A DNA stretch of 39,160 nucleotides from an uncultured Eubacteriales bacterium (lineage in GTDB: Bacteria > Bacillota > Clostridia > Lachnospirales > Bianqueaceae), in NCBI GenBank assembly GCA_900315265.1, contig OMYN01000018.1, positions 1 to 39,160 on the forward strand, in the 5' to 3' direction. This document shows positions 5,175-31,793 of the stretch, one piece after another. Position 1 is the first letter of the stretch. Each line of letters starts with the position of its first letter. A program made the position numbers and the translations under genes. Under the pieces are notes generated by a model that saw nothing but the letters and a program-made list of their open reading frames with translations, had not been told where the DNA came from and did no database searches.

Positions 5175-5203
5175 TTGACAAAGAATTAACTAAGTAATAT
5201 AAT
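5175..5203 (+). promoter_or_regulatory. Consensus sigma-A promoter of the fumC-hdr-frd-mdh operon
   Basis: TTGACA (5175-5180) and TATAAT (5198-5203) are both perfect hexamers with a 17-base spacer. Transcription should start near 5210, giving a leader of about 60 bases. It is the best promoter in the window and lies before an operon of eleven genes, which suggests strong expression. Confidence 0.88.
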
Positions 5204-6647: not shown

Positions 6648-6664
6648 CAAGAAAGGGCTGACAG

Positions 6665-7456
6665 ATGGTTTACAACTATTTTCCAGGCTGTACATTAAAG
6701 GAAAAAGCCAAAGACTTCGACAAATGGGGAAGAGACTGTGCTTCGGCTCTCGGAGTCCCTCTTACTGAAATCGAAGACTGGCAGTGCTGCGGCGGCGTGT
6801 ATCCGCTTTCTAAGGATGAGATCGCTGTCCGTCTTTCTTCGATCCGCGCATTGGCCTATGCCCAGGCCCATGGAGGCGTGCTTGTGACGCTGTGCGCGGC
6901 CTGCCACAATGTACTGAAACAAACGAACTATGATATCGCCAATGATGAGAACTTTGCGCTGAAGGCCAATAATTATCTGGCTGCCGACGGTATCTCCTAT
7001 CACGGCGAAGCGAAGGTCATACACTATCTTGAACTATTGCGGGATGAGGTTGGATTTGATGCAGTCAAAAAAGCTGTGAAGAAGCCGCTTGCCGGGCAGA
7101 AGATCGGGGCCTACTACGGGTGCCTTCTTCTGCGTCCCGGCTACAAGATGGACATGGACAACCCCGAGAATCCCAGTATCATGGAGGATCTGATCCGTGC
7201 TCTCGGTGCGCAGCCGGTCGTATACGCGCAGCGTAATGAATGCTGCGGCGGATACCTGGCCATGGAAGACAGTGAACTGCCCAAGAAGCGGGTAACCAGG
7301 ATCCTTGGCAATGCAGCTGCGCAGGGCGCTGACACAGTCATTACGGCCTGCCCTTTGTGCTATTACAACTTGAAGAAGTATAGTCAGGACAGCGGCGTTA
7401 AGGTGCGGTATCTGACCGATGTGCTGGCGGAAGCGCTGGACGTGAAGGAGGGATAA
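6665..7456 (+). CDS. hdrB: Heterodisulfide reductase subunit B-like (HdrB)
   Basis: The 263-residue protein contains two complete CCG domains, each binding a noncubane [4Fe-4S] cluster in characterised HdrB. The first has Cys9, the pair Cys41-Cys42 (QCCGG) and LCAACHN; the second has YYGCLLL, NECCGGYLAME and ACPLCYYNL. In methanogens this subunit cleaves the CoM-S-S-CoB disulfide; in bacteria without those thiols the acceptor differs by operon. Here the fumarate reductase subunits are in the same transcript, so HdrB may pass electrons to them (inference). AAAGGG upstream supports the start; hdrC begins after one base. Confidence 0.9.
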   Translation: MVYNYFPGCTLKEKAKDFDKWGRDCASALGVPLTEIEDWQCCGGVYPLSKDEIAVRLSSIRALAYAQAHGGVLVTLCAACHNVLKQTNYDIANDENFALKANNYLAADGISYHGEAKVIHYLELLRDEVGFDAVKKAVKKPLAGQKIGAYYGCLLLRPGYKMDMDNPENPSIMEDLIRALGAQPVVYAQRNECCGGYLAMEDSELPKKRVTRILGNAAAQGADTVITACPLCYYNLKKYSQDSGVKVRYLTDVLAEALDVKEG

Positions 7457-7457
7457 A

Positions 7458-7850
7458 ATGGCTGTCAATTATACCGTAACACCGGAAGAGATCCTTGCCA
7501 TCAGCGGCGTGAATCCCCGCAAGTGTATGAAATGCGGACGCTGCACGGCAACGTGCCCGGCGTTCGATGAGATGGAATATCATCCCCACCAGTTTGTGGC
7601 CATGGTGGAAGAGGGCCGCATAGAAGAGCTGATGAACAGCCGCTCGATATACCGCTGCCTGTCCTGTATGGCGTGCATCGAAAGGTGTCCGCGGCAGGTC
7701 GAGCCGGCAAAGTTGATTGAAGCTGTCCGTCTTGCCGTGACCCGTCAGCAGGGCGGAAGCCATCTGATCCCTGATCAGGTACCGGAAAGACTGGATCCGG
7801 ATATGCCGCAGCAGGCGATCGTCTCTGCTTACCGCAAGTACACGAAGTAA
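7458..7850 (+). CDS. hdrC: Heterodisulfide reductase subunit C-like (HdrC)
   Basis: This is a 130-residue ferredoxin-like subunit with two 4Fe-4S motifs, CMKCGRCTATCP and CLSCMACIERCPRQVEP. HdrC conducts electrons between HdrA and HdrB. Length and motif spacing match stand-alone HdrC. GGAGGG precedes the ATG, and hdrA follows after 11 bases. It is almost certainly part of a soluble HdrABC core. Confidence 0.9.
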   Translation: MAVNYTVTPEEILAISGVNPRKCMKCGRCTATCPAFDEMEYHPHQFVAMVEEGRIEELMNSRSIYRCLSCMACIERCPRQVEPAKLIEAVRLAVTRQQGGSHLIPDQVPERLDPDMPQQAIVSAYRKYTK

Positions 7851-7861
7851 AGGAGCGAAAA

Positions 7862-9856
7862 ATGCAGAAAATTGGTGTTTTTGTCTGCCATTGCGGGACA
7901 AATATCGCGGCCACTGTCGATGTAGAGGCGGTCGCAGAAGCAGCCCGTCATGTTCCGGGCGTCGTATACGCGCAGGATTATACGTATATGTGTTCGCAGA
8001 GTGGACAGGATCTGATCAAGGATGCTGTGAAAAAATACGGCCTCACCGGTGTCGTTATCTGCTCCTGCTCTCCGAGAATGCATGAAAAGACCTTCCGCAA
8101 GGCCGTGTCAAGTGTCGGCCTGAATCCGTACCTGCTTGAGATCGCCAATATCCGTGAACAGTGTTCATGGGTCCACAAAGATAAAGAAATCGGAACACAG
8201 AAAGCGATCGCCCTTATGAAGGCGGCGGTTGCCAAAGTCGAACTGGATGCACCGCTTACTGCCGGTGAGACACCGGTCGTAAAAAGAGCGCTTGTCATCG
8301 GCGGCGGAATTGCCGGCATGCAGACAGCCCTTGACATTGCGGACGCCGGCTATGATGTCGATATCGTAGAAAAGAATCCCACGATCGGCGGAAAGATGGC
8401 ACAGCTGGATAAGACATTCCCAACACTGGACTGCTCTTCCTGTATCGTCACGCCGAAGATGGTTGATGTAGGGCAGAATGATCGGATCCACATTTACTCC
8501 TACAGCGAAGTGAAGGATGTAAAGGGATTCGTAGGAAATTTCCACGTAACGATTCGGCGCAAAGCCAGATATGTCGATGAGACAAAGTGCACCGGCTGTG
8601 GTCTGTGCATGGAAAAATGCCCGATGAAGAAGGTGCCGAACGAATTCAATCTGGGCCTGGATAAGCGTTCAGCCGTTTATATCCCATTTGCCCAGGCGGT
8701 TCCCAAGGTCGCGACGATCGATCCGAATTACTGTCTTATGCTGAACAAGGGCGTATGCGGTCTCTGCTCCAAGGTCTGCGGTGCCGGCGCTATCAATTAC
8801 AAAGATACCGATAAGGATATCGAAGTCGATTACGGCGCGATCGTGGTAGCGACGGGCTACGAGATCATGGATGTCAGCAAGTATGATGAATATGCCTATT
8901 CGCAGAGTCCGGATGTCGTGACTTCTCTTGAATATGAGCGTCTGATGAATGCGGCAGGACCCACCGGCGGGGATCTGCGCAGACCGTCCGACGGGAAGCA
9001 TCCCAAGACGATCGTATTCGTTCAGTGTGTCGGATCCCGTGAGTGTGATTCGAAGCGCGGCGGAAAGCCATACTGTTCTAAGATCTGCTGTATGTATACC
9101 GCCAAGCACGCCATGCTTACCAAGGATCATTATCCGGATACCGATATTTACGTCTTCTATATCGACGTCCGCACACCGGGTAAGAACTTCGATGAATTTT
9201 ACCGTAGAGCTGTTGAACAATACGGCGTTCATTATATCAAAGGTGCTGTCGGCAAGGTCACTCCGGAGAACGGGAAGCTGGTCGTACAGGCTTCGGATCT
9301 GCTGATGAATGAGCAGATGACGATCAAGGCAGATATGGTCGTTCTGGCAGCTGCCATTGAACCCAGCCACAGTGCACGCCATCTTGCAACGCTTTTGACG
9401 GCTTCGATGGATACCAACGACTGGTTCACGGAGGCACACCCCAAGCTGCGTCCGGTTGAGAGCCCGACGGCCGGCGTGTTCCTTTCAGGCGTATGCCAGG
9501 GACCTAAGGATATACCGGAGACGGTAGCACAGGCGGGAGCGGCAGCCAGCAAGGTGATCGGTCTGCTTTCCAAGGATAAACTTACCGGAAATCCCTGTGT
9601 TGCCCATTCTGATGAAATGATGTGCACCGGCTGCTCTCAGTGCGCGGATGTCTGCCCGTACGGAGCTATCACTTATGTTGATAAAGAGTTCAGGATGCCC
9701 GACCGCACAACGAAGATCCGGAGAGTGGCTCAGGTCAATCCGGCTGTCTGCCAGGGCTGCGGTGCCTGCACCGTTACCTGCCCGAGCGGAGCCATGGACC
9801 TGAACGGATTCAGCAACAGTGAGATCATGGCGGAGGTAGATGCATTATGCAGATGA
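7862..9856 (+). CDS. hdrA: Heterodisulfide reductase subunit A-like, bifurcating flavoprotein (HdrA)
   Basis: The 664-residue protein has the HdrA plan. The N-terminal domain (1-130) begins MQKIGVFVCHCGTN and contains ICSCSPRMHE. The FAD-binding domain has GGGIAGMQTALDIADAGYD (about 145) and the Cys pair TLDCSSCIVTPKM. A ferredoxin insert has CTGCGLCMEKCP and CGLCSKVCG. The C-terminal ferredoxin domain has CTGCSQCADVCP and CQGCGACTVTCP. In characterised HdrA this FAD splits electron pairs between a low-potential ferredoxin and a high-potential acceptor. AAGGAG supports the start, and mvhD overlaps its end by ten bases. It is the likely bifurcation site of the whole operon. Confidence 0.93.
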   Translation: MQKIGVFVCHCGTNIAATVDVEAVAEAARHVPGVVYAQDYTYMCSQSGQDLIKDAVKKYGLTGVVICSCSPRMHEKTFRKAVSSVGLNPYLLEIANIREQCSWVHKDKEIGTQKAIALMKAAVAKVELDAPLTAGETPVVKRALVIGGGIAGMQTALDIADAGYDVDIVEKNPTIGGKMAQLDKTFPTLDCSSCIVTPKMVDVGQNDRIHIYSYSEVKDVKGFVGNFHVTIRRKARYVDETKCTGCGLCMEKCPMKKVPNEFNLGLDKRSAVYIPFAQAVPKVATIDPNYCLMLNKGVCGLCSKVCGAGAINYKDTDKDIEVDYGAIVVATGYEIMDVSKYDEYAYSQSPDVVTSLEYERLMNAAGPTGGDLRRPSDGKHPKTIVFVQCVGSRECDSKRGGKPYCSKICCMYTAKHAMLTKDHYPDTDIYVFYIDVRTPGKNFDEFYRRAVEQYGVHYIKGAVGKVTPENGKLVVQASDLLMNEQMTIKADMVVLAAAIEPSHSARHLATLLTASMDTNDWFTEAHPKLRPVESPTAGVFLSGVCQGPKDIPETVAQAGAAASKVIGLLSKDKLTGNPCVAHSDEMMCTGCSQCADVCPYGAITYVDKEFRMPDRTTKIRRVAQVNPAVCQGCGACTVTCPSGAMDLNGFSNSEIMAEVDALCR

Positions 9857-10299
9857 CAAAACAGACGGAAGAAAAATGGGAGCCCAAGATCATCGCGTTC
9901 TGCTGCAACTGGTGCTCTTATTCCGGGGCTGACCTTGCGGGAACGAACAGACTGACCTATCCGGCTAATGTCAAGATCATCCGTGTTCCCTGCTCATGCC
10001 GTATCAACCCGAGTTTTGTGCTCCGGGCATTTCAGCGCGGCGCAGACGGTGTGATCATCTGCGGCTGCCATCCCGGTGACTGCCACTATTCAACCGGCAA
10101 TTATCACACAAGACGCCGCATGACGCTTCTGTTTTCACTGCTTGACTATCTGGGCATTGAAAAAGAGAGGACGAGAGTGGAGTGGGTCTCCGCGGCGGAA
10201 GGCCAGAGATTTGTCGATGTCATGGATGACTTTGTCGCACAGGTGACCAAACTTGGTCCCTGCAGAAGACTGGAGGATTTACGATGCAGGACGAACTGA
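9847..10299 (+). CDS. flxD: MvhD/FlxD-type [2Fe-2S] electron-transfer subunit
   Basis: This 150-residue protein has the MvhD signature: FCCNWCSYSGADLAGTNR at the N-terminus, VPCSCRINP, and GCHPGDCHYSTGN. MvhD connects HdrA to its electron-donating partner: a hydrogenase in methanogens, a formate dehydrogenase or the NADH-oxidising Flx module in bacteria. It overlaps hdrA by ten bases and the next gene by sixteen, a tight translational coupling. The ATG at 9847 is preferred over 9853 because GGAGG (9832-9836) is ten bases before it. No [NiFe] hydrogenase is nearby; the partner is the NADH module that follows. Confidence 0.9.
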   Translation: MQMTKQTEEKWEPKIIAFCCNWCSYSGADLAGTNRLTYPANVKIIRVPCSCRINPSFVLRAFQRGADGVIICGCHPGDCHYSTGNYHTRRRMTLLFSLLDYLGIEKERTRVEWVSAAEGQRFVDVMDDFVAQVTKLGPCRRLEDLRCRTN

Positions 10300-11258
10300 T
10301 AAAACGCGCCTGTGAGCTGCTGGAAGACGGGACGGTCGATCGGGTCCTCGGATGGTCGTCCGGCGATTTCTTCTATGATATTACGCCGACTGTCTTTACA
10401 AGTGCAGACGAGGTACGCAAACGTTTTGTTTACAATGATTTCTGCGGCGCCAATCTTTCCAAATATCTGATCGCTGAGTCGCAGAAAGACGGAAAGATCG
10501 CAGCCTTCCTGAAGCCTTGTGATACGTACAGCTTTAACCAGCTGCTTACGGAACACCGGATCAACAGAGAAAAAGTCTATGTGATCGGCATCCCCTGTGA
10601 TGGAAAAGTCAGTGTCGGAACACTGAACGACGCGGGCATTGACGGCATCCTGTCAACAGAAAGAGACGGTGGGGATCTGGTGTGCACGACCGTGTACGGT
10701 GAAAAGCGGATCCCGTTTGCCGAAGCGCAGGATGAGCGCTGCATAAACTGCAAGAGCAGAAAACATGTCGTTTATGATGAACTGATCGGAGAAGAAGGAG
10801 AGGTCCTTGATTCACACCGTTTCGACGAGGTGGAAAAGCTGGAGGCGATGACGCCGGAAGAGCGGTTCGCCTTCTGGCAGGGAGAGCTTTCCCGCTGCAT
10901 CCGCTGCAACGCGTGCCGGAATGTATGCCCGGCCTGCAACTGTGATCTGTGTGTGTTTGACAACCCCAAGTCCGGCGTCTTTTCTAAGGCGGCATCCAAT
11001 GATTTTGAGGATGCGAACTTTCATATCATCCGCGCCTTTCATGTAGCCGGCCGGTGCACGGACTGCGGAGAATGCTCCCGTGTATGCCCGGAACATATCC
11101 CGCTTCATCTGCTGAACCGTAAGCTGATCAAGGATATCAACACCCTGTACGGAACTTATCAGGCCGGTGAAACGGAGGGGCAGATGAGCCCGCTGTCCGC
11201 TTTCACGGAAGACGGTGACGCTGAGCCTTCGATCGTGCAGAAAGGAGGTATCCGCTGA
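10284..11258 (+). CDS. Flx-type 4Fe-4S protein (FlxC-like)
   Basis: The 324-residue protein combines an N-terminal region like F420-dehydrogenase/FrhB-type beta subunits (LKPCDTYSF near 75, IGIPCDGKVS near 100) with several cysteine clusters. These are CINCKSRK near 150, CIRCNACRNVCPACNCDLC near 210 and CTDCGECSRVCP near 255. The last two are typical 4Fe-4S motifs. Position between mvhD and the AsrA-like protein matches the floxABCD-hdrABC gene sets described in anaerobic bacteria, where these subunits carry electrons from an NADH dehydrogenase to HdrA. Which Flx letter it deserves is uncertain. GGAGG (10271-10275) fixes the start; its stop overlaps the next ATG (TGATG). Confidence 0.75.
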   Translation: MQDELIKRACELLEDGTVDRVLGWSSGDFFYDITPTVFTSADEVRKRFVYNDFCGANLSKYLIAESQKDGKIAAFLKPCDTYSFNQLLTEHRINREKVYVIGIPCDGKVSVGTLNDAGIDGILSTERDGGDLVCTTVYGEKRIPFAEAQDERCINCKSRKHVVYDELIGEEGEVLDSHRFDEVEKLEAMTPEERFAFWQGELSRCIRCNACRNVCPACNCDLCVFDNPKSGVFSKAASNDFEDANFHIIRAFHVAGRCTDCGECSRVCPEHIPLHLLNRKLIKDINTLYGTYQAGETEGQMSPLSAFTEDGDAEPSIVQKGGIR

Positions 11259-12316
11259 TGATTGTCAAAGTAGCTGAGCAAAAACTTCCGGAGCTGCTGA
11301 CCGCAGCAGCCGGTGTTGAAAAGCTCTACATCCCTGTCGACAAGTCGGATAAGGTGTCTGTATTCGAGGAATACGCGCCAGGAAAGACATTGTCCCGGAA
11401 ATTGAACACGCTCCGCAGTGCGAAGGATTTCTTTTTCCCACAGGTCCAGCCGATGGCAAAGTTCCGGATGGAGGGGAAAAAGATCGAAGTCATCGACACA
11501 AGGGAAGAGCCCCAGGATTTTATCATCTTCGGGGTCCGCGCGTGTGATGTCCGTTCCTTTGATATTTTGGACCGTGTTTTCCTGGCGGATCCCGTCGACA
11601 CCTATTATGAAAGCAGAAGGAAACACGCGACCATCGTCAGCTGGGCATGCGCCGAGCCTTCCGAGACCTGCTTCTGTCATAGTTTTGGGATCGATGCGGC
11701 AGCGCCGGAAGGTGACGCGCGGATGTGGATCGCCGGGGGCTGGATCTATTTGGAGGATCTCACAGAGAAAGGCGCTGAGCTCTTAAAAGCGTTGGATCTG
11801 CCTGCGCTTGGTGCGGATACTTCGGATGAAGACGCAGAGAAAGAAGTGAAGGCGGAGCAGGACCGGATCCACTCGATCCAGGAAAAATTACCTTTGTACA
11901 GCCTGAAGCCGGCGGACAACAGACAGAAGGAACTGGAGATTTTCAACTCACCGGTTTGGAAAGAATTTTCCGACAAGTGCCTTGGCTGCGGTTCCTGTAC
12001 GTTTGTTTGTCCCACCTGCCAGTGTTTTGACATCGAAGATTTTAACGACGGACATACTATTGAGCGGTACCGCTGCTGGGACAGCTGTATGTATAAGGAT
12101 TTCACCATGATGGCAGCCGGTACGCCACGCAAGACGCAGTTGGAGCGTTTCCGGCAGAGGTTTATGCATAAGCTGGTTTACTATCCGATAAAAAACGATG
12201 GTATTTACAGCTGTGTCGGATGCGGGCGCTGTCTGAGACGCTGCCCGATCCACATGAATATCGTAAAAGTCATGAAGGCCTTGGAGGAGGACGCGCAATG
12301 CGAAAAGAAGAACTGA
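11258..12316 (+). CDS. Flx/AsrA-type 4Fe-4S dicluster protein (FlxB-like)
   Basis: This 352-residue protein resembles the A subunit of anaerobic sulfite reductase and the beta subunit of sulfhydrogenase. An N-terminal half has DFIIFGVRACDVRSFDILDR and the Cys-rich CAEPSETCFCHSFG. The ferredoxin half has CLGCGSCTFVCPTCQCFD near 245 and CVGCGRCLRRCP near 325. It is expected to relay electrons from the NADH-oxidising flavoprotein encoded next. AAAGGAGG precedes the start, and the stop lies 19 bases inside the downstream gene. No sulfite-reductase catalytic subunit (AsrC) is present, so sulfite reduction is not supported. Confidence 0.78.
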   Translation: MIVKVAEQKLPELLTAAAGVEKLYIPVDKSDKVSVFEEYAPGKTLSRKLNTLRSAKDFFFPQVQPMAKFRMEGKKIEVIDTREEPQDFIIFGVRACDVRSFDILDRVFLADPVDTYYESRRKHATIVSWACAEPSETCFCHSFGIDAAAPEGDARMWIAGGWIYLEDLTEKGAELLKALDLPALGADTSDEDAEKEVKAEQDRIHSIQEKLPLYSLKPADNRQKELEIFNSPVWKEFSDKCLGCGSCTFVCPTCQCFDIEDFNDGHTIERYRCWDSCMYKDFTMMAAGTPRKTQLERFRQRFMHKLVYYPIKNDGIYSCVGCGRCLRRCPIHMNIVKVMKALEEDAQCEKKN

Positions 12317-13125
12317 TCCCGCAGGTCGGCGTCGTAACGGATATCCGCCAGGAGACCGGGGATGTGAAGACCTTCCGGGTCGTGGGGACGGACGGTAAAA
12401 AGCTGTTCGAACATATCCCCGGACAATGTGCCATGCTCAGTGTGCCCGGTGTCGGTGAAGCCATGATTTCCATTACTTCCAGCCCGACGATCAAGGAATA
12501 TATGGAATTTGCCGTCAAGAAGGTCGGTGTGCTTACAAGCTGGCTGCACGGCATGGAAGTCGGACAGGAAATTCTGATCCGCGGACCGTACGGGAATGGA
12601 TTCCCGGTCGAATCTACTTTCCGTGGAAAAGATTTGCTGTTCATTGCAGGCGGCATCGGACTGGCTCCGCTTCATTCGGTAATCAATTACTGCCGGGCCA
12701 ACCGGGCTAATTACGGTCATATCGATGTCGTTTACGGTTCCCGCACGAAAGAAGATCTGGTCGATCTTGCCGAGATGCAGGACGAGTGGATGAACGAAAA
12801 AGATATGAATGTCTATCTGACGATCGACCGGGAAGAAGAAGGATGGGACGGCCATGTCGGGTTTGTACCGAACTATGTGAAGGAATTGCAGTTCCCGACG
12901 ACGGAAACGGCTGTCATCTGCGGCCCTCCGGTTATGATCCACTTTACGCTGCAGGGGCTGAAGAGCCTTGGTTTTAAAGACTCGCAGGTCTTCACGACGA
13001 TGGAGATGCGCATGAAGTGCGGCATCGGCAAATGCGGACGCTGCAATATCGGTGATAAATATGTCTGCAAAGACGGACCGGTTTTCAGTTTTGACCAACT
13101 GGGCGAGCTTCCGGACGAATACTGA
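12298..13125 (+). CDS. flxA: FAD/NAD(P)H-binding reductase subunit (FlxA/AsrB-like)
   Basis: The 275-residue protein is of the ferredoxin-NADP reductase superfamily. An FAD domain has DVKTFRVVG, HIPGQCAMLSVPG and ISITSSP. A nucleotide domain has AGGIGLAPLHSVINYC and VYGSRTKEDL. The C-terminal Cys motif CGIGKCGRCNIGDKYVC binds a [2Fe-2S] cluster as in PyrK and AsrB. It is the probable entry point for NADH. GGAGGAGG at 12283-12290 shows the start is the ATG at 12298, not the longer frame from 12220. The FAD motif shows ISITSSP where RPYS-type motifs are usual, as in the Asr/Flx branch. NADH rather than NADPH is inferred from the Flx family. Confidence 0.82.
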   Translation: MRKEELIPQVGVVTDIRQETGDVKTFRVVGTDGKKLFEHIPGQCAMLSVPGVGEAMISITSSPTIKEYMEFAVKKVGVLTSWLHGMEVGQEILIRGPYGNGFPVESTFRGKDLLFIAGGIGLAPLHSVINYCRANRANYGHIDVVYGSRTKEDLVDLAEMQDEWMNEKDMNVYLTIDREEEGWDGHVGFVPNYVKELQFPTTETAVICGPPVMIHFTLQGLKSLGFKDSQVFTTMEMRMKCGIGKCGRCNIGDKYVCKDGPVFSFDQLGELPDEY

Positions 13126-13142
13126 TCCGAGTGGAGGAAAAT

Positions 13143-13820
13143 ATGGACAACAAGATGGTTAACGTCTACCTGTTCGGGAAAAAATATGAAGTTCCGGACA
13201 ATCTGACGATCATGACGGCGTTTGAATATGCCGGCTACCAGCTGAAAAGAGGCTGCGGATGCCGTAACGGTTTCTGCGGTGCCTGTGCGACGATCTACCG
13301 GATCGCCGGCCAGCAGGAACTGAAGATGTGCCTTGCCTGTCAGACCAAGGTCGAAAACAACATGTATGTGGCGACCCTTCCGTTCTTCCCGCTCGTCAAG
13401 CAGATCTACGATATCAATACGGTAAAGCCCGAGCAGCAGCTGATGATGCAGCTGTATCCGGAGATCTATTCCTGCATCGGCTGCAACGCTTGTACGAGAG
13501 CTTGTCCGCAGGGATTGAATACCATGCAGTACATCGCTTACGCACAGCGCGGTGATTTTAAAAAGGTTGCTGAACTGTCCTTTGACTGTGTTATGTGCGG
13601 GATCTGTTCGTCCCGCTGTCCGGCCGGGATCTCTCATCCGCAGGTCGCGATGCTTGCCAGAAGGCTGAACGGGCGCTATTTAAGCCCTGAGTCCGAGCAT
13701 CTTGACAAACGTGTGAAGGAAATCTGGAACGGCGACTATGAACAGGCCATGAAAGATCTGATGAACAAATCCGATGACGAGCTGAAGGAAATGTACAACA
13801 GCCGGGTGATCGAGAAGTGA
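13143..13820 (+). CDS. frdB: Fumarate reductase/succinate dehydrogenase-type iron-sulfur subunit
   Basis: The 225-residue protein has a plant-type [2Fe-2S] domain with Cys38, Cys40, Cys45, Cys48 and the later CLAC, then two ferredoxin motifs, CIGCNACTRACP (111-121) and CVMCGICSSRCP (149-159). Both are full four-Cys 4Fe-4S patterns. Ordinary FrdB/SdhB has a [3Fe-4S] centre in the second place, so this resembles the N-terminal part of TfrB of methanogen thiol:fumarate reductase, but without its CCG domain. The operon carries that domain separately as hdrB. GGAGG at 13133-13137 sets the ATG at 13143. It should feed electrons to the flavoprotein encoded next. No quinone-binding partner is encoded. 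Confidence 0.87.
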   Translation: MDNKMVNVYLFGKKYEVPDNLTIMTAFEYAGYQLKRGCGCRNGFCGACATIYRIAGQQELKMCLACQTKVENNMYVATLPFFPLVKQIYDINTVKPEQQLMMQLYPEIYSCIGCNACTRACPQGLNTMQYIAYAQRGDFKKVAELSFDCVMCGICSSRCPAGISHPQVAMLARRLNGRYLSPESEHLDKRVKEIWNGDYEQAMKDLMNKSDDELKEMYNSRVIEK

Positions 13821-13830
13821 GGTGAGCCGA

Positions 13831-15453
13831 ATGTATCCGGAAAAATTTCAGGAATCAATCCGAAAAGTAGAAGCCAGACGTGCGGAAAACGCGGCCATGG
13901 AACCGGTCCGCATGACTGCTGACGAAAAGGATGCGCTGCTTCGCGCCTATCATCCGGACTACCGCGAGAATCAGTTTGAAAAGCTGAAGATCGGAGTCAA
14001 CGCAGGTGATAAAGCACCGCACGAGTTAGCAGATATGCTGCAGGCACACGCAAGGATCCATGAAGGCGATGTCGATCTGGAACATCCGGATTATGAGACG
14101 GATGTCCTGATCATTGGCGGAGGCGGTGCCGGCTGTGCAGCCGCCATCGAGGCTGATGAAGCCGAAGCCCGTGTCATGATCTGCACGAAACTGCGTCCGG
14201 GTGACGCCAACACGATGATGGCAGAAGGCGGTATCCAGGCGGCAGACAAAGAGGGCGACAGCCCCATGCAGCATTTCCTTGATGCCTACGGCGGTGGTCA
14301 TTTCGCGGCGAAGAAGGAGTTGGTCGCTAAGCTTGTTACAGAAGCTCCGGAGGATATTCAGTGGCTGAATCAGCTGGGCGTTGAATTTGACAAGACCGAT
14401 GACGGAACTATGATCACCACGCACGGCGGCGGTACTTCCCGCAAGAGAATGCATGCGTGCCGCGACTACACCGGTATGGAAATCATGCGTACGCTGCGCG
14501 ATGAAGTCTTGAACCGAAAGATACCGATCCTCGACTTTACAGCGGCGATCGAGATCATCAAGGATGAAGAGGGACGCGCGGCCGGTGCGGTTTTCCTGAA
14601 TATGGAGACGGAAGAGCTGATCGTCATCCAGGCAAAAGCTGTGATCCTGGCAACCGGAGGAGCTGGACGCATGCACTATCAGGGCTTCCCGACCAGCAAC
14701 CATTACGGGGCGACCGCTGACGGCCTGGTACTTGGCTATCGTGCAGGAGCAAAGCTTCTGTATGAAGATACGCTTCAATATCATCCGACCGGCGCGGCTT
14801 ATCCTGAGCAGATCTTCGGTGCGCTTGTGACCGAAAAGGTACGTTCGCTGGGGGCTAAACTCGTAAATATCGATGGTGAAGTCTTCGTTCATCCGCTTGA
14901 GACGCGCGATGTGGAAGCGGCCGCGATCATCCGCGAGACCGGGGAACGCGGTAAAGGTGTCGATACCGGACACGGCAAAGCTGTCTGGCTGGATACACCC
15001 ATGATCGAACTGATCGGCGGACCTGGTACGATCCAGGCAAGGATCCCCGCCATGTACCGGATGTACGAAAAACGCGGAATTGATATGCGCAAAGAGCCGA
15101 TCCTGGTTTATCCGACCCTTCATTATCAGAACGGCGGCCTGGAGATCAATACAGACTGCATGACGACGGTAGAAAACCTGTATGCGGCCGGTGAGGTTAC
15201 CGGAGGCGTGCATGGCCGCAACCGTCTGATGGGAAACTCTCTTCTGGATGTAATCGTGTTCGGAAGAGATGCCGGCAAAGCTGCCGGACAGAAAGTAAAA
15301 GAAATAAAGACCGGAAAGCTGACCCTTTCTCATGTCACTGCTTTTGAGAAACTGATCGCAGATGCGGGTATCAGCACCGATAAGGTGTCACCGAAGCTGC
15401 TCCCGAATTATCTTAGAAACAGAAATGTATATGACGGCCCAATGATTCAGTAG
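13831..15453 (+). CDS. frdA: Fumarate reductase-type flavoprotein subunit
   Basis: The 540-residue protein carries the FAD-binding motif DVLIIGGGGAGCAAAIEA at about 91-108 and the active-site stretches THGGGTSRKRMHACRD, YHPTGAAYPEQIF, LHYQNGGLEI and GGVHGRNRLMGNSLLD. It should reduce fumarate to succinate. The first 90 residues before the FAD domain are a charged, mostly helical extension not found in usual FrdA and may dock to the Hdr/Flx proteins (inference). AGTGAGGTGAG before 13831 supports that ATG over a GTG at 13822. With fumC and the malate-type dehydrogenase in the operon, the fumarate-reducing direction is favoured. Aspartate oxidase was considered but the gene has an FrdB partner. 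Confidence 0.88.
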   Translation: MYPEKFQESIRKVEARRAENAAMEPVRMTADEKDALLRAYHPDYRENQFEKLKIGVNAGDKAPHELADMLQAHARIHEGDVDLEHPDYETDVLIIGGGGAGCAAAIEADEAEARVMICTKLRPGDANTMMAEGGIQAADKEGDSPMQHFLDAYGGGHFAAKKELVAKLVTEAPEDIQWLNQLGVEFDKTDDGTMITTHGGGTSRKRMHACRDYTGMEIMRTLRDEVLNRKIPILDFTAAIEIIKDEEGRAAGAVFLNMETEELIVIQAKAVILATGGAGRMHYQGFPTSNHYGATADGLVLGYRAGAKLLYEDTLQYHPTGAAYPEQIFGALVTEKVRSLGAKLVNIDGEVFVHPLETRDVEAAAIIRETGERGKGVDTGHGKAVWLDTPMIELIGGPGTIQARIPAMYRMYEKRGIDMRKEPILVYPTLHYQNGGLEINTDCMTTVENLYAAGEVTGGVHGRNRLMGNSLLDVIVFGRDAGKAAGQKVKEIKTGKLTLSHVTAFEKLIADAGISTDKVSPKLLPNYLRNRNVYDGPMIQ

Positions 15454-15466
15454 GAGGAAACTGATT

Positions 15467-16426
15467 ATGGACAAGAAAATCGGAAGAAAGATTACGATCA
15501 TCGGAGCCGGTGCGGTCGGCTCAACGATTGCGTATTCTCTGTCACAGAGGAGCCATGCATCGGAGATCGTGCTGATCGATGTGAACACGGCAAGAGCGAT
15601 GGGGGAAGCTCTTGATATTGCACAGGCGACAAGTTTCCGCGACCCGATCCTGATTGATTCCGGTGATTACAGTGCTGCGAAAAATTCCGATATCGTCATC
15701 ATTACGTCGGGAATTGCCAGAAAACCGGGCCAGACAAGATTGGAACTCACAAAGACCAACGTCGGGATCATCAAGGATATTGCCCCGCAGATCGCAAAGG
15801 TAGCACCGAACGCCCTTTATATCATTGTCAGCAACCCGGTCGACATCCTCACCTATGTGTTCACCAAGGTTTCCGGGATCCCGGAGGAGCAGATCATCGG
15901 GACCGGCACGATCCTCGATTTCTCACGTCTCAAGTGTATCCTGGCGCAGAAGCTGAACGTCGCTCAGAAAAATGTTCATTCCTACGTATTCGGTGAGCAT
16001 GGGGACACTTCGTTCATCCCTTGGTCGACAGTCCGTATTTCCGGTGTGAGCATCGATGAGTATATCAGTCTTGTCAAGCATAAGCATCTTCCGATCGAAT
16101 CGATCGATAAAGATGAGATCCTCAATTATGTTCAGAAGTCAGGCGGTACGATCATCAAGGAAAAGGGAGCGACCTTCTACGGCATTGCCGCTTCGGTCAT
16201 GAACCTTGTCAGTATGCTTACCAGCGCTTATGATTCCATTACCTGCTGCTCGACCCTGATGCACGGTGAGTATGGCGTCGATGATGTTTGTCTGAGCTGC
16301 CTTACGATCATCGGGCCCAACGGAGTGCGCGGAAAGATCCCGGTGCCGATGACCAATGAAGAAGTCGACAAAATGCAGCATTCGGAAAGAGTTCTTAAAG
16401 AAGTGATCTCCCAACTCGATCTGTAA
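15467..16426 (+). CDS. mdh: LDH-fold 2-hydroxyacid dehydrogenase, probably malate dehydrogenase
   Basis: The 319-residue protein is an L-lactate/malate dehydrogenase: Rossmann motif GAGAVGS (13-19), Asp38 for NAD preference, Asp151/Arg154 in LDFSR, and the catalytic His178 in GEHGD. By overall sequence it belongs with L-lactate dehydrogenases. However, the substrate-selecting residue is Arg85 (GIARKPGQTR), where lactate dehydrogenases have Gln (QKPGETR). In the classical LDH work this Gln102-to-Arg change alone converts specificity to oxaloacetate/malate. Position as the last gene in an operon with fumarase and fumarate reductase agrees. An automatic label of L-lactate dehydrogenase would therefore likely be wrong. 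AGGAGGAAA precedes the ATG and a strong terminator follows. Confidence 0.82.
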   Translation: MDKKIGRKITIIGAGAVGSTIAYSLSQRSHASEIVLIDVNTARAMGEALDIAQATSFRDPILIDSGDYSAAKNSDIVIITSGIARKPGQTRLELTKTNVGIIKDIAPQIAKVAPNALYIIVSNPVDILTYVFTKVSGIPEEQIIGTGTILDFSRLKCILAQKLNVAQKNVHSYVFGEHGDTSFIPWSTVRISGVSIDEYISLVKHKHLPIESIDKDEILNYVQKSGGTIIKEKGATFYGIAASVMNLVSMLTSAYDSITCCSTLMHGEYGVDDVCLSCLTIIGPNGVRGKIPVPMTNEEVDKMQHSERVLKEVISQLDL

Positions 16427-16458
16427 GAGTTTTCCCCGCTTGTAAAGCTGTAAAAAAG

Positions 16459-16504
16459 AAGAGCTGTAAAGGATGTCCAATGAGGCATTCTTTGCAGCTC
16501 TTTT
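16459..16504 (+). terminator. Strong terminator of the fumC-mdh operon
   Basis: A 17-pair stem with two G-T pairs (16459-16475 with 16486-16502) is followed by TTTT. It is nested inside a second inverted repeat, CTTGTAAA (16439-16446) with TTTACAAG (16507-16514). It ends the operon that begins at 5175. Confidence 0.88.
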
Positions 16505-17001: not shown

Positions 17002-18888
17002 ATGAGCAGACTTAGTATTGTTACCAGCAATAATGCTCAGAAGACGGTTGAAGGTCTGTACAAGGATCTTGAACGGCGTATCCAGGCTTCCCAGCCCGGG
17101 CTGTGTCCGGTTGACCTCGCGGAGGCATTTCTGCACCTGTGCCATGCGCAGTCCTGCGGTAAATGTGTTCCCTGCCGGGTCGGATTGGGCCAGATGGAAT
17201 CGCTGATCGAGTCCGTACTGCAGGGCAATGCCGACATGAGCACGATCGATCTGATCGAAGAGACAGCGGAATCCATCTATGTTTCTGCAGACTGCGCGAT
17301 CGGTTCGGAAGCCGCCCTGATGGTCCTTAAAGGTGTCAGAGGCTTCAGAGACGATTATGAGGAGCATGTACGGCACGGACGCTGCAGCGCGCTGCAGAAT
17401 CAGCCGGTTCCGTGTGTATCGCAGTGCCCGGCGCATGTGGATATCCCCGGTTATATTTCTCTGATCCATGAAGGCCGCAATGCCGATGCGGTCAAATTAA
17501 TCCGCAAGGACAATCCCTTTCCGGCTGTCTGCGGACTTATCTGTGAGCATCCTTGCGAGATCCGCTGCCGTCGTACGATGGTCGATGACGCGATCAACAT
17601 CCGCGGACTGAAACGCTATGCCGTGGAGCATGAGGTACAGGAACTGGAAAAGAACGGAGTTCTGGAAGGCCAGGGACATACGGAAGCAGACGTTCCTGCT
17701 CCGGAGCGTATGGATCATACCGGTAAAAAAGTTGCCATTATCGGCGGTGGACCATCAGGACTCAGCGCGGCTTATTATCTGAGTATCATGGGACACGATG
17801 TGACCGTTTACGAGCAGCGTCATAAACTGGGCGGTATGCTGCGGTACGGTATCCCGGCTTACAGGCTTCCCAGAGAGGTCCTGGATCACGAGATCGAGTA
17901 TCTGAAACAGACCGGTTTTACGGTAAAAACCGACGTATCCATCGGCAAGGATATTTCCATTGAAGAGATCCGCGACCAGTATGATGCTATGTACGTATGC
18001 ATCGGTGCCCACACAGACCGCAAGATCGGTATCGAAGGGGAGGACTCCAAGGGTGTCATTTCAGCCGTGGAATTGCTCCGTGCGATCGGCGACGATCAGT
18101 ATCCGGACTTCACCGGCCTGGACATTGTTGTGGTCGGAGGCGGAAATGTTGCCATGGATGTGGCAAGGACAGCGATCCGTCTCGGTGCCAAATCCGTGAA
18201 GATCGCTTACCGGAGAAGAAAGCAGGATATGACGGCTCTTCCGGAAGAGGTGGAAGGTGCGATCGCAGACGGATGTGAGATCCTGGAGATGTCTGCACCC
18301 GTCCGCATCGAGAAGGACGAAAACGGGAACTGCAAGGCTCTTATCGTGCAGCCGGAGATCGTAGGTCCCATCGTTAACGGACGCCCGTCGCCTGTAAAGG
18401 CAGATCTGCCTGAAAAAGCCGTTCACGCGGATCGTGTGCTTGTTGCTATAGGCCAGGGCATCGACACACGTAAAGTCAGTGAACTTTCCGGCATTTCCAT
18501 TCAAAGAGGCCGGATCAGCGCGCTTGATACTTCAGCGCTTGAAAACGTGGCAGGAATTTTTGCCGGCGGAGACTGCGTAACCGGTCCTGCAACGGTCATC
18601 AAGGCCATTGCCGCAGGCAAAGTTGCCGCTGCCAATATCGACGACTATCTGGGTTATCATCATGAGATCGAGGCCGGTGTCAAGATCCCGCCGGTACGCT
18701 TCGACGACCATAAGCCGACCGGCCGTGTCAACATGAAAGAACGCCCGGCTTCGGAGCGTAAACATGACTTTAAGCTGATGGAGTGCGGTATGACAGAGGA
18801 GGAAGCTTGTCAGGAATCCGGACGCTGCCTGCACTGCGATCACTTCGGATATGGAATATTCAAGGGAGGCCGTGAAGCAAAATGGTGA
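17002..18888 (+). CDS. NuoF C-terminal/GltD-like fusion NAD(P)H oxidoreductase
   Basis: The 628-residue protein is a natural fusion. Residues 1-115 are the 4Fe-4S domain of NuoF (SCGKCVPCRVGLGQ and CAIGSEAALMVLKG), without the FMN/NADH-binding part. Residues 130-215 form a dihydropyrimidine-dehydrogenase domain II with QCPAHVDIPGYI and CEHPCEIRCRR. The rest is a GltD-type flavin reductase with IIGGGPSGLSAAYYL, VVVGGGNVAMDVARTA, YRRRKQDMTALPEE and FAGGDCVTGPATVIKA. A final Cys-x2-Cys lies in SGRCLHCDHFG. It should shuttle electrons between NAD(P)H and the hydrogenase encoded next, with which it overlaps by seven bases. AGGAGG at 16986-16991 sets the start. No glutamate synthase large subunit is present, so a role in glutamate synthesis is not supported here. 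Confidence 0.85.
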   Translation: MSRLSIVTSNNAQKTVEGLYKDLERRIQASQPGLCPVDLAEAFLHLCHAQSCGKCVPCRVGLGQMESLIESVLQGNADMSTIDLIEETAESIYVSADCAIGSEAALMVLKGVRGFRDDYEEHVRHGRCSALQNQPVPCVSQCPAHVDIPGYISLIHEGRNADAVKLIRKDNPFPAVCGLICEHPCEIRCRRTMVDDAINIRGLKRYAVEHEVQELEKNGVLEGQGHTEADVPAPERMDHTGKKVAIIGGGPSGLSAAYYLSIMGHDVTVYEQRHKLGGMLRYGIPAYRLPREVLDHEIEYLKQTGFTVKTDVSIGKDISIEEIRDQYDAMYVCIGAHTDRKIGIEGEDSKGVISAVELLRAIGDDQYPDFTGLDIVVVGGGNVAMDVARTAIRLGAKSVKIAYRRRKQDMTALPEEVEGAIADGCEILEMSAPVRIEKDENGNCKALIVQPEIVGPIVNGRPSPVKADLPEKAVHADRVLVAIGQGIDTRKVSELSGISIQRGRISALDTSALENVAGIFAGGDCVTGPATVIKAIAAGKVAAANIDDYLGYHHEIEAGVKIPPVRFDDHKPTGRVNMKERPASERKHDFKLMECGMTEEEACQESGRCLHCDHFGYGIFKGGREAKW

Positions 18889-20630
18889 CAGAGAATCTGG
18901 TGAATTGTACGATCGACGGAAAGAGCATCACCGTGCCGGAACGGACAACGATCCTGGACGCTGCCAAAATGGCCGGGATCAAGATCCCAACGCTCTGTTT
19001 TCTGAAAGACATCAATGAGATCGGCGCCTGCCGGGTCTGCGTGGTGGAAGTGGAAGGCTATGACCGCCTGCTGACAGCCTGCAACAACTCGGTAAAAGAA
19101 GGAATGGTCATCCGTACCAATTCCAAGAAAGCCCGTGATGCGCGCAAGACCAACGTCGAGTTGATCTTGTCGGAGCATAACACCAACTGCGCCATCTGCG
19201 TGCGGTCCGGTAACTGCACTCTGCAAAGGGTCGCAAATGATCTGAATATTGTCGGCGTCCCCTATGAAAAGAAACTGCCCAAGCAGAAGGGCTCACGCCA
19301 GTTCCCGCTGATCCGCGACTACGACAAATGCATCAAGTGTATGCGCTGCGTCCAGGTCTGCGATCATATCCAGGCTTCCAATATCTGGGATGTGGTCAAT
19401 ACCGGAGCTAAGACAACAGTCGATGTGAGGGATGTGTACAGCCTGGAAGACAGCCGCTGCACCCTGTGCGGACAGTGCATCACCCATTGCCCGACCGGTG
19501 CCCTGCATGAGCGGGACGATACGGATAAAGTCCTTGAAGCACTGGAAGATCCGGATAAGATCGTCGTTGCTCAGATCGCGCCTTCCATTCGTACTGCCTG
19601 GGGCGAACCTTTCGGCCTGCCTCCGGAAGAGGCGACGGTCAAACGTCTGGCGTCAGCCCTTAGGATCATGGGTTTCGACTACATTTTTGATACCGATTTT
19701 TCAGCGGATCTGACCATCATGGAAGAGGCCAGCGAGCTTCTGGAAAAACTGAAGGAACCGGACAAAAATAAATTCCCCATGTTTACTTCCTGCTGCCCGG
19801 GATGGGTACGTTTTGTAAAAGGACATTATCCCGAATTCGTACCTCAGGTCAGCACTTCCAAGTCGCCGCAGCAGATGTTCGGCGCGATCGTCAAGAGCTA
19901 TTACGCGGATCTTCTTAAGGTAAGTCCGGACAAGATCTTCTGCGTATCCATCATGCCCTGCGTTGCCAAGAAAGCGGAATGTGCGTATCCGACCATGACC
20001 TATGACGGGGTCCATCCGGAAGTGGATGTGGCGCTGACGACCCGGGAAGTTGTCCGCCTGATCCGTTCGGAGCATATTCAGGTCGCGCAGATCTCGGACA
20101 GCGAACTGGATGCTCCCTTGGGAGTAGGTTCCGGCGCAGGCAACATTTTCGGTGCTACCGGCGGTGTCATGGAAGCGGCCTTGCGCACGGCTTACTACTT
20201 TGTGACCGGTAAAAATCCGGACCCGGATACCTTCCGCGATGTGCGCGGTATGAGGGGCTGGAAAGAAGCTACCTTTGACATGGACGGAATTCCCTTAAGA
20301 GTAGCGGTCGTCAATGGCCTGGCCAATGCGGCAAATCTTCTGGAAGAGCTTAAGAAAGGGCATGTACAGTATGAATTTGTCGAAGTCATGGCTTGTCCCG
20401 GCGGCTGTGTGGGCGGAGGCGGCCAGCCTATTCATGAGAATCGGGAAATGGCGGCGCTTCGCGCTCCTGTCCTGTATACACAGGATCGCAATACGACTCT
20501 GCGTTTCTGCCATGAGAATCCTTCGATCAGGGCTGTCTACCGGGATTATCTGGGCAGTCCGCTTTCGGAAAGAGCGGAGAAGCTTCTCCACACAAGACAG
20601 GACGGCTGGAAAATGCCGAGTGAAACATAA
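18882..20630 (+). CDS. hydA: Modular [FeFe] hydrogenase, group A type
   Basis: This 582-residue enzyme makes or uses H2. From the N-terminus it has a [2Fe-2S] domain (GACRVCVVEVEG), a His-Cys3 cluster (HNTNCAICVRSGNC), two 4Fe-4S motifs (CIKCMRCVQVCD, CTLCGQCITHCP) and the three H-cluster motifs: TSCCPGWVRF, IMPCVAKKAE and EVMACPGGCVGGGGQP. It ends with the small-subunit-like tail containing YRDYLGSPLSERAEKLLH. All catalytic Cys are present. It overlaps the NuoF/GltD fusion gene, which implies a two-protein NAD(P)H-linked hydrogenase. A separate NuoE-like subunit is absent. The maturases HydE, HydF and HydG are not in the window. Confidence 0.95.
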   Translation: MVTENLVNCTIDGKSITVPERTTILDAAKMAGIKIPTLCFLKDINEIGACRVCVVEVEGYDRLLTACNNSVKEGMVIRTNSKKARDARKTNVELILSEHNTNCAICVRSGNCTLQRVANDLNIVGVPYEKKLPKQKGSRQFPLIRDYDKCIKCMRCVQVCDHIQASNIWDVVNTGAKTTVDVRDVYSLEDSRCTLCGQCITHCPTGALHERDDTDKVLEALEDPDKIVVAQIAPSIRTAWGEPFGLPPEEATVKRLASALRIMGFDYIFDTDFSADLTIMEEASELLEKLKEPDKNKFPMFTSCCPGWVRFVKGHYPEFVPQVSTSKSPQQMFGAIVKSYYADLLKVSPDKIFCVSIMPCVAKKAECAYPTMTYDGVHPEVDVALTTREVVRLIRSEHIQVAQISDSELDAPLGVGSGAGNIFGATGGVMEAALRTAYYFVTGKNPDPDTFRDVRGMRGWKEATFDMDGIPLRVAVVNGLANAANLLEELKKGHVQYEFVEVMACPGGCVGGGGQPIHENREMAALRAPVLYTQDRNTTLRFCHENPSIRAVYRDYLGSPLSERAEKLLHTRQDGWKMPSET

Positions 20631-20641
20631 CCAATACAATA

Positions 20642-20678
20642 AAAGACCTCCGGTCCGCTGCACGAACCGGAGGTCTTT
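20642..20678 (+). terminator. Hairpin terminator after hydA
   Basis: AAAGACCTCCGGT (20642-20654) pairs perfectly with ACCGGAGGTCTTT (20666-20678) around an 11-base loop. The T-run is short (three) before ACATGG, so termination may be partial. The stem abuts the -35 element of the next promoter. Confidence 0.75.
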
Positions 20679-20703
20679 ACATGGCTTTTTTATATGTTAT
20701 AAT
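20676..20703 (+). promoter_or_regulatory. Promoter of the second [FeFe] hydrogenase gene
   Basis: TTTACA (20676-20681) and TATAAT (20698-20703) are separated by 16 bases. The -35 hexamer reuses the last bases of the terminator stem, so the hydrogenase genes are separate transcription units packed end to end. Confidence 0.7.
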
Positions 20704-20752
20704 TATGACGATTTTTTATACGGAAGGTAGAGAAAGGGGAGTAATAGCCAAC

Positions 20753-22327
20753 ATGCGAGGAGTCAAAACCACTAAAACAGACCTAAGACGGCGTATTTTT
20801 ACCGAAATCGCCCGCATGGCTTATAACAATGACGGCCCGGAAGCGCTGGAAAACCTTCCCTACGAAATCATTCCCGGTGAGATCGCCTCGCTGCGCTCGG
20901 ACATTTTTCTGGAGCGGGAGATCGTACGCGAAAGGCTTCGAGTCGCCATGGGACTTTCCATCCGTAAGATCACGGAACACCATAAAGTCTCCGAGGGCGT
21001 CGATGAGAGCATGATCGCGGACAAATATTATGAACCGCCTCTTATCGATATCATAAAATTTGCCTGCAATTCCTGCGTTGAAAATAAGGTGTTCGTTTCA
21101 AACGGATGCCAGGGATGCATTGAGCACCCGTGCGTCGAAGTATGCCCCAAGTCTGCTGTGTCCATGGTCAACCGCCATTCGGTCATCGATCAGAGCAAGT
21201 GCATCAAGTGCGGACGCTGTGTCGAGGCGTGTCCTTATCACGCCATCATCCACCAGGAGCGGCCCTGCGCCAAAGCATGCGGCACCGGAGCCATCAAATC
21301 CGACCAATACGGCCGGGCCGAGATCGACCAGTCCAAATGTGTCGCCTGCGGCATGTGCCTGGTATCCTGTCCCTTTGCCGCCATTGTCGATAAAAGCCAG
21401 ATCTTCCAGCTGATCAAAGCCATTCAGTCGGATAAACCGGTCTATGCCATCGTGGCGCCGGCCATAGCCGGACAGTTCGGACCCAAGTTCACACAGAAAA
21501 AGATCCGCTCTGCTTTTAAGGCTCTTGGATTTGCCGATGTCGCCGAGGTAGCCGTTGGCGCGGACCTTTGCACCATTGAAGAGGCTAAGGATTTCCTCAA
21601 GGAAGTACCTGACAAGCTCTCCTGGATGGGGACCAGCTGCTGTCCTGCCTGGGCTATGCTGGCCAAGAAAAATTTCCCGGACGCTGCAAAAAACATTTCT
21701 ATGGCGCTCACTCCCATGGTCCTGACTGCCCGCCTGCTAAAAGAGCAGCATCCGGACAGCAGGATCGCCTTCATCGGCCCTTGCCTGTCCAAAAAGCAGG
21801 AGGCAAGCCGGCGTTCTGTCAAAAGTTATGTGGATTTCTGCCTGACATTCGAGGAATTGCAAGGTATGTTTGAGGCAAAGGAAATCGATTTTGATAAACT
21901 GCCGGATGATCTGCCTTTACGGGAGGCCAGTGCGGATGGACGAGGATTTGCCAAGAGCGGAGGCGTCGCACAGGCTGTCGTCAATTACATCAAAAAGATC
22001 GAACCGGACCGCGAAGTCAAAGTCATGAACGCGGACGGCCTTGCCGACTGTAAAAAAATGCTTACTGTCGCGACAAAAACGCACAAATACGACGGATATC
22101 TGCTGGAAGGCATGGCTTGTCCGGGCGGCTGCATCGCCGGTGCGGGCGTGATCGTCCCGGTCGACAAATCCCGGAAAAATTTGGAAGCCTCCATGGCGGA
22201 CACGGAGTTCGCCCAGGCGGCCGAAACTACCTACGCCGATTGGATCCCGTCTCTCGAAAATATCGAAGAGACCTTCCACGACGTGGTTGATGATTTTGAT
22301 ACCAATGATAAAACGAAAAGAAAGTAA
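20753..22327 (+). CDS. [FeFe] hydrogenase, group B-like
   Basis: The 524-residue protein has an N-terminal helical domain (DLRRRIFTEIARMAYN) of the kind seen in group B enzymes. Ferredoxin motifs follow (GCQGCIEHPCVEVCP, CIKCGRCVEACP, CVACGMCLVSCP), then the H-cluster motifs GTSCCPAWAMLAKK, IGPCLSKKQEA and EGMACPGGCIAGAG. The Pro-Ala variant in the first motif and the IGPC variant in the second differ from the group A enzyme at 18882 and fit group B, whose physiological role is still unsettled; a ferredoxin-linked role is usual in proposals. ATG 20753 after GAAAGGGGAG is preferred to the longer frame from 20681, which would start inside the promoter. The last 40 residues are acidic. Confidence 0.88.
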   Translation: MRGVKTTKTDLRRRIFTEIARMAYNNDGPEALENLPYEIIPGEIASLRSDIFLEREIVRERLRVAMGLSIRKITEHHKVSEGVDESMIADKYYEPPLIDIIKFACNSCVENKVFVSNGCQGCIEHPCVEVCPKSAVSMVNRHSVIDQSKCIKCGRCVEACPYHAIIHQERPCAKACGTGAIKSDQYGRAEIDQSKCVACGMCLVSCPFAAIVDKSQIFQLIKAIQSDKPVYAIVAPAIAGQFGPKFTQKKIRSAFKALGFADVAEVAVGADLCTIEEAKDFLKEVPDKLSWMGTSCCPAWAMLAKKNFPDAAKNISMALTPMVLTARLLKEQHPDSRIAFIGPCLSKKQEASRRSVKSYVDFCLTFEELQGMFEAKEIDFDKLPDDLPLREASADGRGFAKSGGVAQAVVNYIKKIEPDREVKVMNADGLADCKKMLTVATKTHKYDGYLLEGMACPGGCIAGAGVIVPVDKSRKNLEASMADTEFAQAAETTYADWIPSLENIEETFHDVVDDFDTNDKTKRK

Positions 22328-29368: not shown

Positions 29369-30091
29369 TTATTCTATCTCCTCGTATTCTTCGTAGCCTG
29401 ATGTTTCATCCACCGGCATGGAGAATACGAGGCCTTTGGCTGGCGTAGACATACCGAAAGCACTGGAGATAGCAAGCAGAATATCGTTTTTACGATCGGC
29501 TGCGACGATCATCATGAGGACTTCCTTTTCTTCTTCCGGATCCAGTCCGAATATAGCAGTCATACTCTGATCGGAAACACGGAAGGAATGAAGGACAGTA
29601 CCTCCGTGGGCTCCTGCCTGTCTGGCTGTCTGAACGACATCCTGTATATATCCGCGATTGGTAATACTGACGATCAAGGAATGTTCTGCATTCATCGATT
29701 CTTTCTCCTTCTGACTGCTATGTACCTGGATATTGTTTAGAGAGGTCGGATCCATCTGCCGAGCGATCTTGAGCATGGACTGACTGGCGGCGTCCAGTGG
29801 GACCGTGCAGGCGATACCGTTCGCTCCTTTTCCCATATGCAGCCGCAGACGGATCTTTCTCATAAGCACATGGGCCTTTCTGCCTGTAAGATACGAGCAG
29901 TAAAGGATACGGTCGCTGCTGTCCAGTCCTAATGTCTTCAGGATACGGCTGCTGGCCGTTCCTTCGGCGTTGAAACGGTAATATACAGAGATGCCTTCCT
30001 GCTGAAAGAGTCCGCGGATGGAAGGATCCATATCCGGCATAGCTACCAGCATCATCAGGCGCAGGGATATTTTTTCTTTTTTGACGGTCAT
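29369..30091 (-). CDS. Tandem P-II-like regulatory protein
   Basis: The 240-residue protein has a C-terminal P-II-type domain (about 145-235): SLIVSITNRGYIQDVVQTAR, AGAHGGTVLHSFRV and GMSTPAKGLVFSMPVDETSG, as in nitrogen regulatory P-II proteins. The N-terminal half (10-110) appears to be a second, more diverged copy: LMMLVAMPDMDPSIRGLF and ANGIACTVPLDAAS. P-II proteins sense nucleotides and 2-oxoglutarate and often control membrane transporters. Its start codon overlaps the stop of the DUF1538 membrane protein by four bases, so the two are translationally coupled and presumably interact. The T-loop Tyr of classical GlnB is not recognisable. Confidence 0.72.
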   Translation of the reverse strand: MTVKKEKISLRLMMLVAMPDMDPSIRGLFQQEGISVYYRFNAEGTASSRILKTLGLDSSDRILYCSYLTGRKAHVLMRKIRLRLHMGKGANGIACTVPLDAASQSMLKIARQMDPTSLNNIQVHSSQKEKESMNAEHSLIVSITNRGYIQDVVQTARQAGAHGGTVLHSFRVSDQSMTAIFGLDPEEEKEVLMMIVAADRKNDILLAISSAFGMSTPAKGLVFSMPVDETSGYEEYEEIE

Positions 30092-31620: not shown

Positions 31621-31793
31621 CAGAGTACTCCTTTTCAAGACTTATATGCTTATTTTAACATGATTTGCTTCGGATTCGGGGCAGAGAGGACGATTCCATC
31701 AAAAAATAAGAAGGCAATCAGATAGGCAGGTACCGGCATCAGCCGTCCGGCAGCCGGTCCGGTCGTTTCGGTGCATCCTCATCCGGGTAACCC

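Follow-up and report, generated by a model that had tools for sequence, protein, structure and literature searches.

An anchorless fumarate reductase operon of Clostridia with probable Flx-Hdr coupling to NADH and ferredoxin

In this study, we analyzed a 39,160-nucleotide stretch of DNA (the window) from an uncultured Eubacteriales bacterium with a Clostridia genome of gut/rumen type, contig C41 of an assembly of 2.16 Mb (97% complete, not closed), and found that fumC, hdr, flx and frdBA genes lie within one operon that lacks a membrane anchor. A soluble, NADH-dependent fumarate reductase that also reduces ferredoxin, that is, a bifurcating enzyme, is the best explanation of this operon, and we consider it probable.

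The operon comprises 11 genes on the + strand at 5271-16426, in the order fumC-hdrBCA-flxD-flxCBA-frdBA-mdh, which overlap or are separated by gaps of at most 17 bp. Its features are as follows.

5175-5203, + strand: candidate promoter TTGACA-17-TATAAT, 12 of 12 consensus positions, 67 bp upstream of fumC (consensus match only)
5271-6647, + strand: fumC, class II fumarase (TIGR00979, 693 bits, above the cut-off of 665)
6665-7456, + strand: HdrB/SdhE-like subunit with two CCG motifs (PF02754; HdrB in the PDB, E 4e-35)
7458-7850, + strand: HdrC with two [4Fe-4S] motifs, Cys conserved (TIGR03290, 56 bits, under the cut-off of 160)
7862-9856, + strand: HdrA, FAD bifurcation subunit with extra ferredoxin domains (NF040770 HdrA2, 809 bits, under the cut-off of 1100)
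9847-10299, + strand: MvhD/FlxD-like electron-transfer subunit (PF02662 FlpD, E 4e-56)
10284-11258, + strand: FlxC-like 4Fe-4S dicluster subunit (Fer4_8, Fer4_17; operon position)
11258-12316, + strand: FlxB-like subunit of the AsrA/ShyB family, Fer4_22 (NF040829, 196 bits; PF17179)
12298-13125, + strand: FlxA-like FAD/NAD-binding subunit, predicted NADH entry (PF00175, PF10418; conservation)
13131-13820, + strand: FrdB with [2Fe-2S] and two [4Fe-4S] motifs, without a CCG domain
13822-15453, + strand: FrdA, FAD-binding fumarate reductase flavoprotein (PF00890, 254 bits)
15467-16426, + strand: LDH/MDH-family dehydrogenase with Arg102 (ARKPGQTR), probable malate dehydrogenase, 13 bp 3' of frdA
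16458-16503, + strand: candidate intrinsic terminator, 20-pair stem and T tail, at the operon end (consensus match only)

HdrA falls under its cut-off because the C-terminal MvhD part of the model is encoded here by a separate gene. The ORF of the FlxA-like protein opens at 12220, and conservation sets in near the Met at 12298; the FrdB start noted earlier, 13143, is an in-frame Met inside the ORF. The positions of promoter and terminator fit a single transcript from fumC to mdh, in agreement with the preliminary description, in which FrdB and HdrB were separate genes of one transcript.

The predicted electron path is modeled on HdrABC-MvhAGD, whose structure has been described (PMC5861303), and homology to HdrABC suggests bifurcation. 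In the putative complex, NADH would be oxidized at FlxA, and the electrons would reach HdrA via FlxB, FlxC and the MvhD-like protein. The FAD of HdrA would split each pair, with one electron passing to low-potential ferredoxin and the other to HdrC. HdrC, probably together with the CCG subunit HdrB, would then hand electrons directly to the clusters of FrdB (two [4Fe-4S] and one [2Fe-2S]), and these would supply a non-covalently bound FAD in FrdA, where fumarate would be reduced to succinate. The net reaction would be 2 NADH + oxidized ferredoxin + fumarate -> 2 NAD+ + reduced ferredoxin + succinate. Under standard-state conditions, the energetics with bifurcation amount to -18 to -49 kJ/mol (ferredoxin at -420 to -500 mV, NADH at -320 to -280 mV). 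Flx and Hdr might also deliver the electrons of NADH to FrdAB with no reduction of ferredoxin, a path that would be strongly downhill at about -68 kJ/mol. Yet such a plain path needs no HdrA, whereas HdrA, the MvhD-like protein and their cluster cysteines are strictly conserved (97-100% for the cluster Cys of the MvhD-like protein, HdrA, HdrB and HdrC), and we regard this non-bifurcating alternative as unlikely.

A scan of contigs across genomes revealed at least 585 relatives, and the best 80 of these were used for locus comparison. The order HdrB-HdrC-HdrA-MvhD-FlxC-FlxB-FlxA-FrdB-FrdA was kept in essentially all of these best 80 loci with enough flank, and fumC nearly always preceded this set. 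The LDH/MDH-family gene is located 3' of frdA in the nearest relatives and 5' of fumC in most others. Loci of Ruminococcus flavefaciens FD-1 (L075) and Eubacterium coprostanoligenes (L036) are among those related. Such uniform gene content and order indicate that the arrangement is not due to chance. Furthermore, in a set of 148 genomes from the class, 22 carried this FrdA and 22 this HdrB, with both present in 21 (Fisher p ~3e-23, kinship not corrected); a 37% match in G349, which represents another protein, was left out of the FrdA count. The two genomes with only one of the two proteins were 75 and 62% complete. Sixteen of the FrdA-HdrB pairs shared one contig, 7.1-7.3 kb apart. The distribution is patchy, and five other genomes from the taxonomic order of the source genome do not carry the set.

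As the preliminary description had stated, no membrane gene, whether cytochrome b or FrdC/FrdD-like, is present among the genes of the operon. It had also left room for a co-varying anchor encoded elsewhere, and none came to light in the search for Sdh_cyt. PF01127 (Sdh_cyt) had no match in the genome itself and was present in 7 of 14 control genomes, PF02300 (FrdC) and PF02313 (FrdD) being outside the search; across the 148 class genomes it was above cut-off in none, and its four weak matches all fell in genomes other than those with this FrdA. In addition, PF01040 (UbiA, which includes MenA) had no match in the genome and was present in all 14 controls. A menaquinone route is very unlikely in this genome because neither an Sdh_cyt anchor nor a UbiA-family prenyltransferase was found.

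FrdB, of 229 aa, carries a [2Fe-2S] site (C44, C49, C52 and C70, plus C42 and C67) followed by C115xxC118xxC121xxxC125P and C153xxC156xxC159xxxC163P, and it ends without a CCG domain. The two full 4Fe-4S motifs reported earlier are thus complete, and their eight cysteines were retained in 75 of 75 relatives. The second motif of E. coli FrdB reads CTFVGYCSEVCP, with Val at the position of the second Cys, and therefore the [3Fe-4S] site of that enzyme corresponds to a full [4Fe-4S] site in this FrdB. Against SdhB/FrdB models the protein gave a partial match of 37 bits (cut-off 88), its structure model was poor (pLDDT 63), and the best hit of the fold search had an E value of 0.02.

FrdA retains the residues equivalent to H232, T244, E245, R287, H355 and R390 of the E. 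coli protein, as do 79 of 79 relatives. At its N terminus it carries an extension of about 90 aa that is conserved. The stretch that starts at R390 spans only about 70 residues, versus about 190 in the TfrA-like and SdhA proteins compared, which shows that the C-terminal domain is missing. In its structure model the protein resembles E. coli FrdA (E 3e-27), which adds little to the case made from sequence. The FAD-linking His (His44 in E. coli) is replaced by Asn in 78 of 79 relatives, and this residue is Asn130 here. Loss of this His in the E. coli and yeast enzymes led to non-covalent FAD and abolished succinate oxidation, and the Wolinella MFR likewise does without it (reviewed in PMC2680327). 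The substitution argues against the complex running in reverse, with succinate oxidized at the help of reduced ferredoxin (confurcation). Flavin-based bifurcation is reversible in principle, but the energetics also favor fumarate reduction, and we judge this direction to be most improbable.

The affiliation of FrdA was examined in a tree of 64 proteins, no archaeal TfrA among them. The phylogeny, which the preliminary description had envisaged, was firm on one point: the FrdA proteins of this cassette form a single clade (support 100/100), with 2.67 changes per column along its stem. Their position beside TfrA-like Bacillota proteins had a support of just 63/43, in a tree without archaeal TfrA and with this very long stem, and neither a join to the quinone-linked group (p-AU 0.19) nor one to NadB (p-AU 0.53) was rejected. 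FrdA of this subfamily also stays under the cut-off of every curated fumarate reductase model. Such a distant clade, together with the p-AU of the NadB join, would suit a reductase of another enoate or a relative of L-aspartate oxidase. Against this, the operon holds fumC and a probable malate dehydrogenase, FrdA has an FrdB partner, and all tested catalytic residues of fumarate reductases are kept, though these are common to NadB; we think there is only a slight chance that FrdA has such a function. A second FrdA-like match, on contig C4 (G000; also L084), was rejected as another fumarate reductase: it is a distant, SdhA-like flavoprotein of 663 aa lacking the NRLxxNS motif, in place of which it reads VNKLGESL.

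Two known systems resemble the reductase part of this operon. First, TfrAB of methanogens likewise has no anchor, and FrdB-like and CCG parts serve fumarate reduction there too. Unlike in the window, where the parts are separate genes, the CCG part is fused in TfrB. FrdA reached 354 bits against the TfrA model (cut-off 718) and FrdB 42 bits against the TfrB model (cut-off 385). The best model for HdrB was SdhE (149 bits), and with the HdrB profile of the cassette, partial SdhE proteins of Bacillota SdhABE loci reached as much as 142 bits but a fused TfrB only 23. That TfrB belongs to a locus of a Bacillota genome (L095, 1215-4433), in which a TfrA-like protein is followed by TfrB with its CCG half fused, near the curated cut-off; the locus ends inside TfrB. 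Because both subunits score far under the Tfr models, HdrB is nearer to SdhE and the C-terminal domain is absent from FrdA, comparison of these protein families makes an unfused TfrAB only an analogy. Of the earlier proposal, a soluble FrdAB tied to HdrABC in the same operon without an anchor has held, and the unfused counterpart of TfrAB has not found support. To our knowledge, CoM and CoB are not to be expected in Clostridia.

Second, the 8-methylmenaquinol:fumarate reductase SdhABE, or class-E SQR, shares with this enzyme a second [4Fe-4S] cluster in place of [3Fe-4S] in the B subunit, the lack of the FAD-linking His and a 10-cysteine (CCG) partner (PMC2680327). The second FrdB motif, the absent His and the CCG partner are, at the level of motifs, class-E features. 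However, SdhABE is membrane-bound, quinol-linked and exported (Tat) (PMC2680327), whereas no quinone genes were found here and the CCG subunit is part of HdrABC; scores were also low against the MFR models, with 218 bits for FrdA (SdhA, cut-off 1100) and 23 for FrdB (SdhB, cut-off 600). HdrB would stand in the position that SdhE holds in class-E enzymes.

HdrB has a gene of its own, and both of its CCG motifs are complete, their 10 cysteines being kept in all relatives. All cysteines of a disulfide-reducing site are present, so that a disulfide may still be a substrate of HdrB. A thiol shuttle of the Tfr kind could build on this, with HdrB reducing a small or protein disulfide and the resulting thiols feeding FrdAB. 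Such a role is in line with FlxABCD-HdrABC of Desulfovibrio vulgaris, as far as described where Ramos 2015 is cited (PMC4759654): it too joins an NADH dehydrogenase to a heterodisulfide reductase set through an MvhD-like link and is thought to feed, and reduce, DsrC. In contrast, the operon here contains FrdAB, and DsrC was not found in the genome. Moreover, the thiols are oxidized in Tfr at a CCG domain that forms one chain with the FrdB part. This FrdB lacks such a domain, and no second CCG protein was found in the genome; since HdrB is the only one, no second thiol site of that kind is available. A thiol shuttle is accordingly rated as improbable. Instead, we lean toward a dual use of HdrB, for which the chances seem a little better than even: the subunit would wire HdrABC straight into the C-terminally truncated FrdA/FrdB, with no heterodisulfide reduction, giving a quinone-free bifurcating enzyme that, with malate dehydrogenase and fumarase, would be the means by which many Clostridia of gut and rumen make succinate.

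The last gene of the operon bears on this route. Its product scores above the cut-off of the L-LDH model (317 versus 304 bits). In the LDH/MDH family, Arg versus Gln at position 102 sets the preference for oxaloacetate versus pyruvate. The product has Arg there, as do relatives with a readable motif, whereas a second gene of the genome, on C12, encodes Gln (GQKPGETR), as in true LDH. The gene is thus probably a malate dehydrogenase rather than an L-lactate dehydrogenase, and the latter name is likely a misnaming in databases. A PEP carboxykinase gene is located on C30, and PEP carboxykinase, malate dehydrogenase, fumarase and FrdAB would, from their annotations, complete a path from PEP to succinate. 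The operon would then act as a unit that converts oxaloacetate derived from PEP carboxykinase to succinate and saves part of the energy of fumarate as reduced ferredoxin.

Downstream of the operon, the window encodes an NAD(P)-binding GltD-like protein (17002-18888), an NADH-dependent [FeFe]-hydrogenase A6 (18882-20630) and a monomeric [FeFe]-hydrogenase B1 (20681-22327); the neighboring hydrogenases (18882-22327) could be users of reduced ferredoxin. Further along, one ORF (30091-31638) matches both UmpA and UmpB antiporter subunits under their cut-offs, apparently a natural fusion, and a radical SAM protein (36735-38246) has a weak mycofactocin maturase match, under cut-off.

The idea of an Flx-Hdr-coupled fumarate reductase is not new, having been proposed in 2019-2020. 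The succinate operon of Pseudoclostridium thermosuccinogenes opens with a fumarase gene, followed by seven genes for Flx-Hdr and then a pair for Frd, is jointly regulated and was up about 4-fold under CO2 limitation, and a link of fumarate reduction to ferredoxin reduction was proposed, as a proposal only (PMC7282089), with credit to a 2019 preprint by Koendjbiharie and van Kranenburg as cited there (10.20944/preprints201912.0288.v1). Compared by gene order, that operon shows the same succession and the same proposed coupling as ours, but ends in a hypothetical protein (possible transporter) where ours ends in the MDH-like gene with Arg102. Our operon is a further, widely conserved member of this proposed kind, and biochemical proof of such an enzyme was not found in the literature searched. 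As far as that literature shows, what is new is how broadly and strictly FrdA and HdrB co-occur, that neither quinone nor anchor genes were found, that FrdA is truncated and has no FAD-linking His, and that the last gene probably encodes a malate dehydrogenase.

If the proposed coupling is true, many Clostridia of gut and rumen would, in making succinate, save energy as reduced ferredoxin and not via a quinone chain. The reduced ferredoxin would serve H2 formation, Rnf or biosynthesis, and the redox and H2 balances of fermentation models would change. Moreover, a soluble enzyme would become available for the direct study of how HdrABC is linked to a carboxylate reductase.
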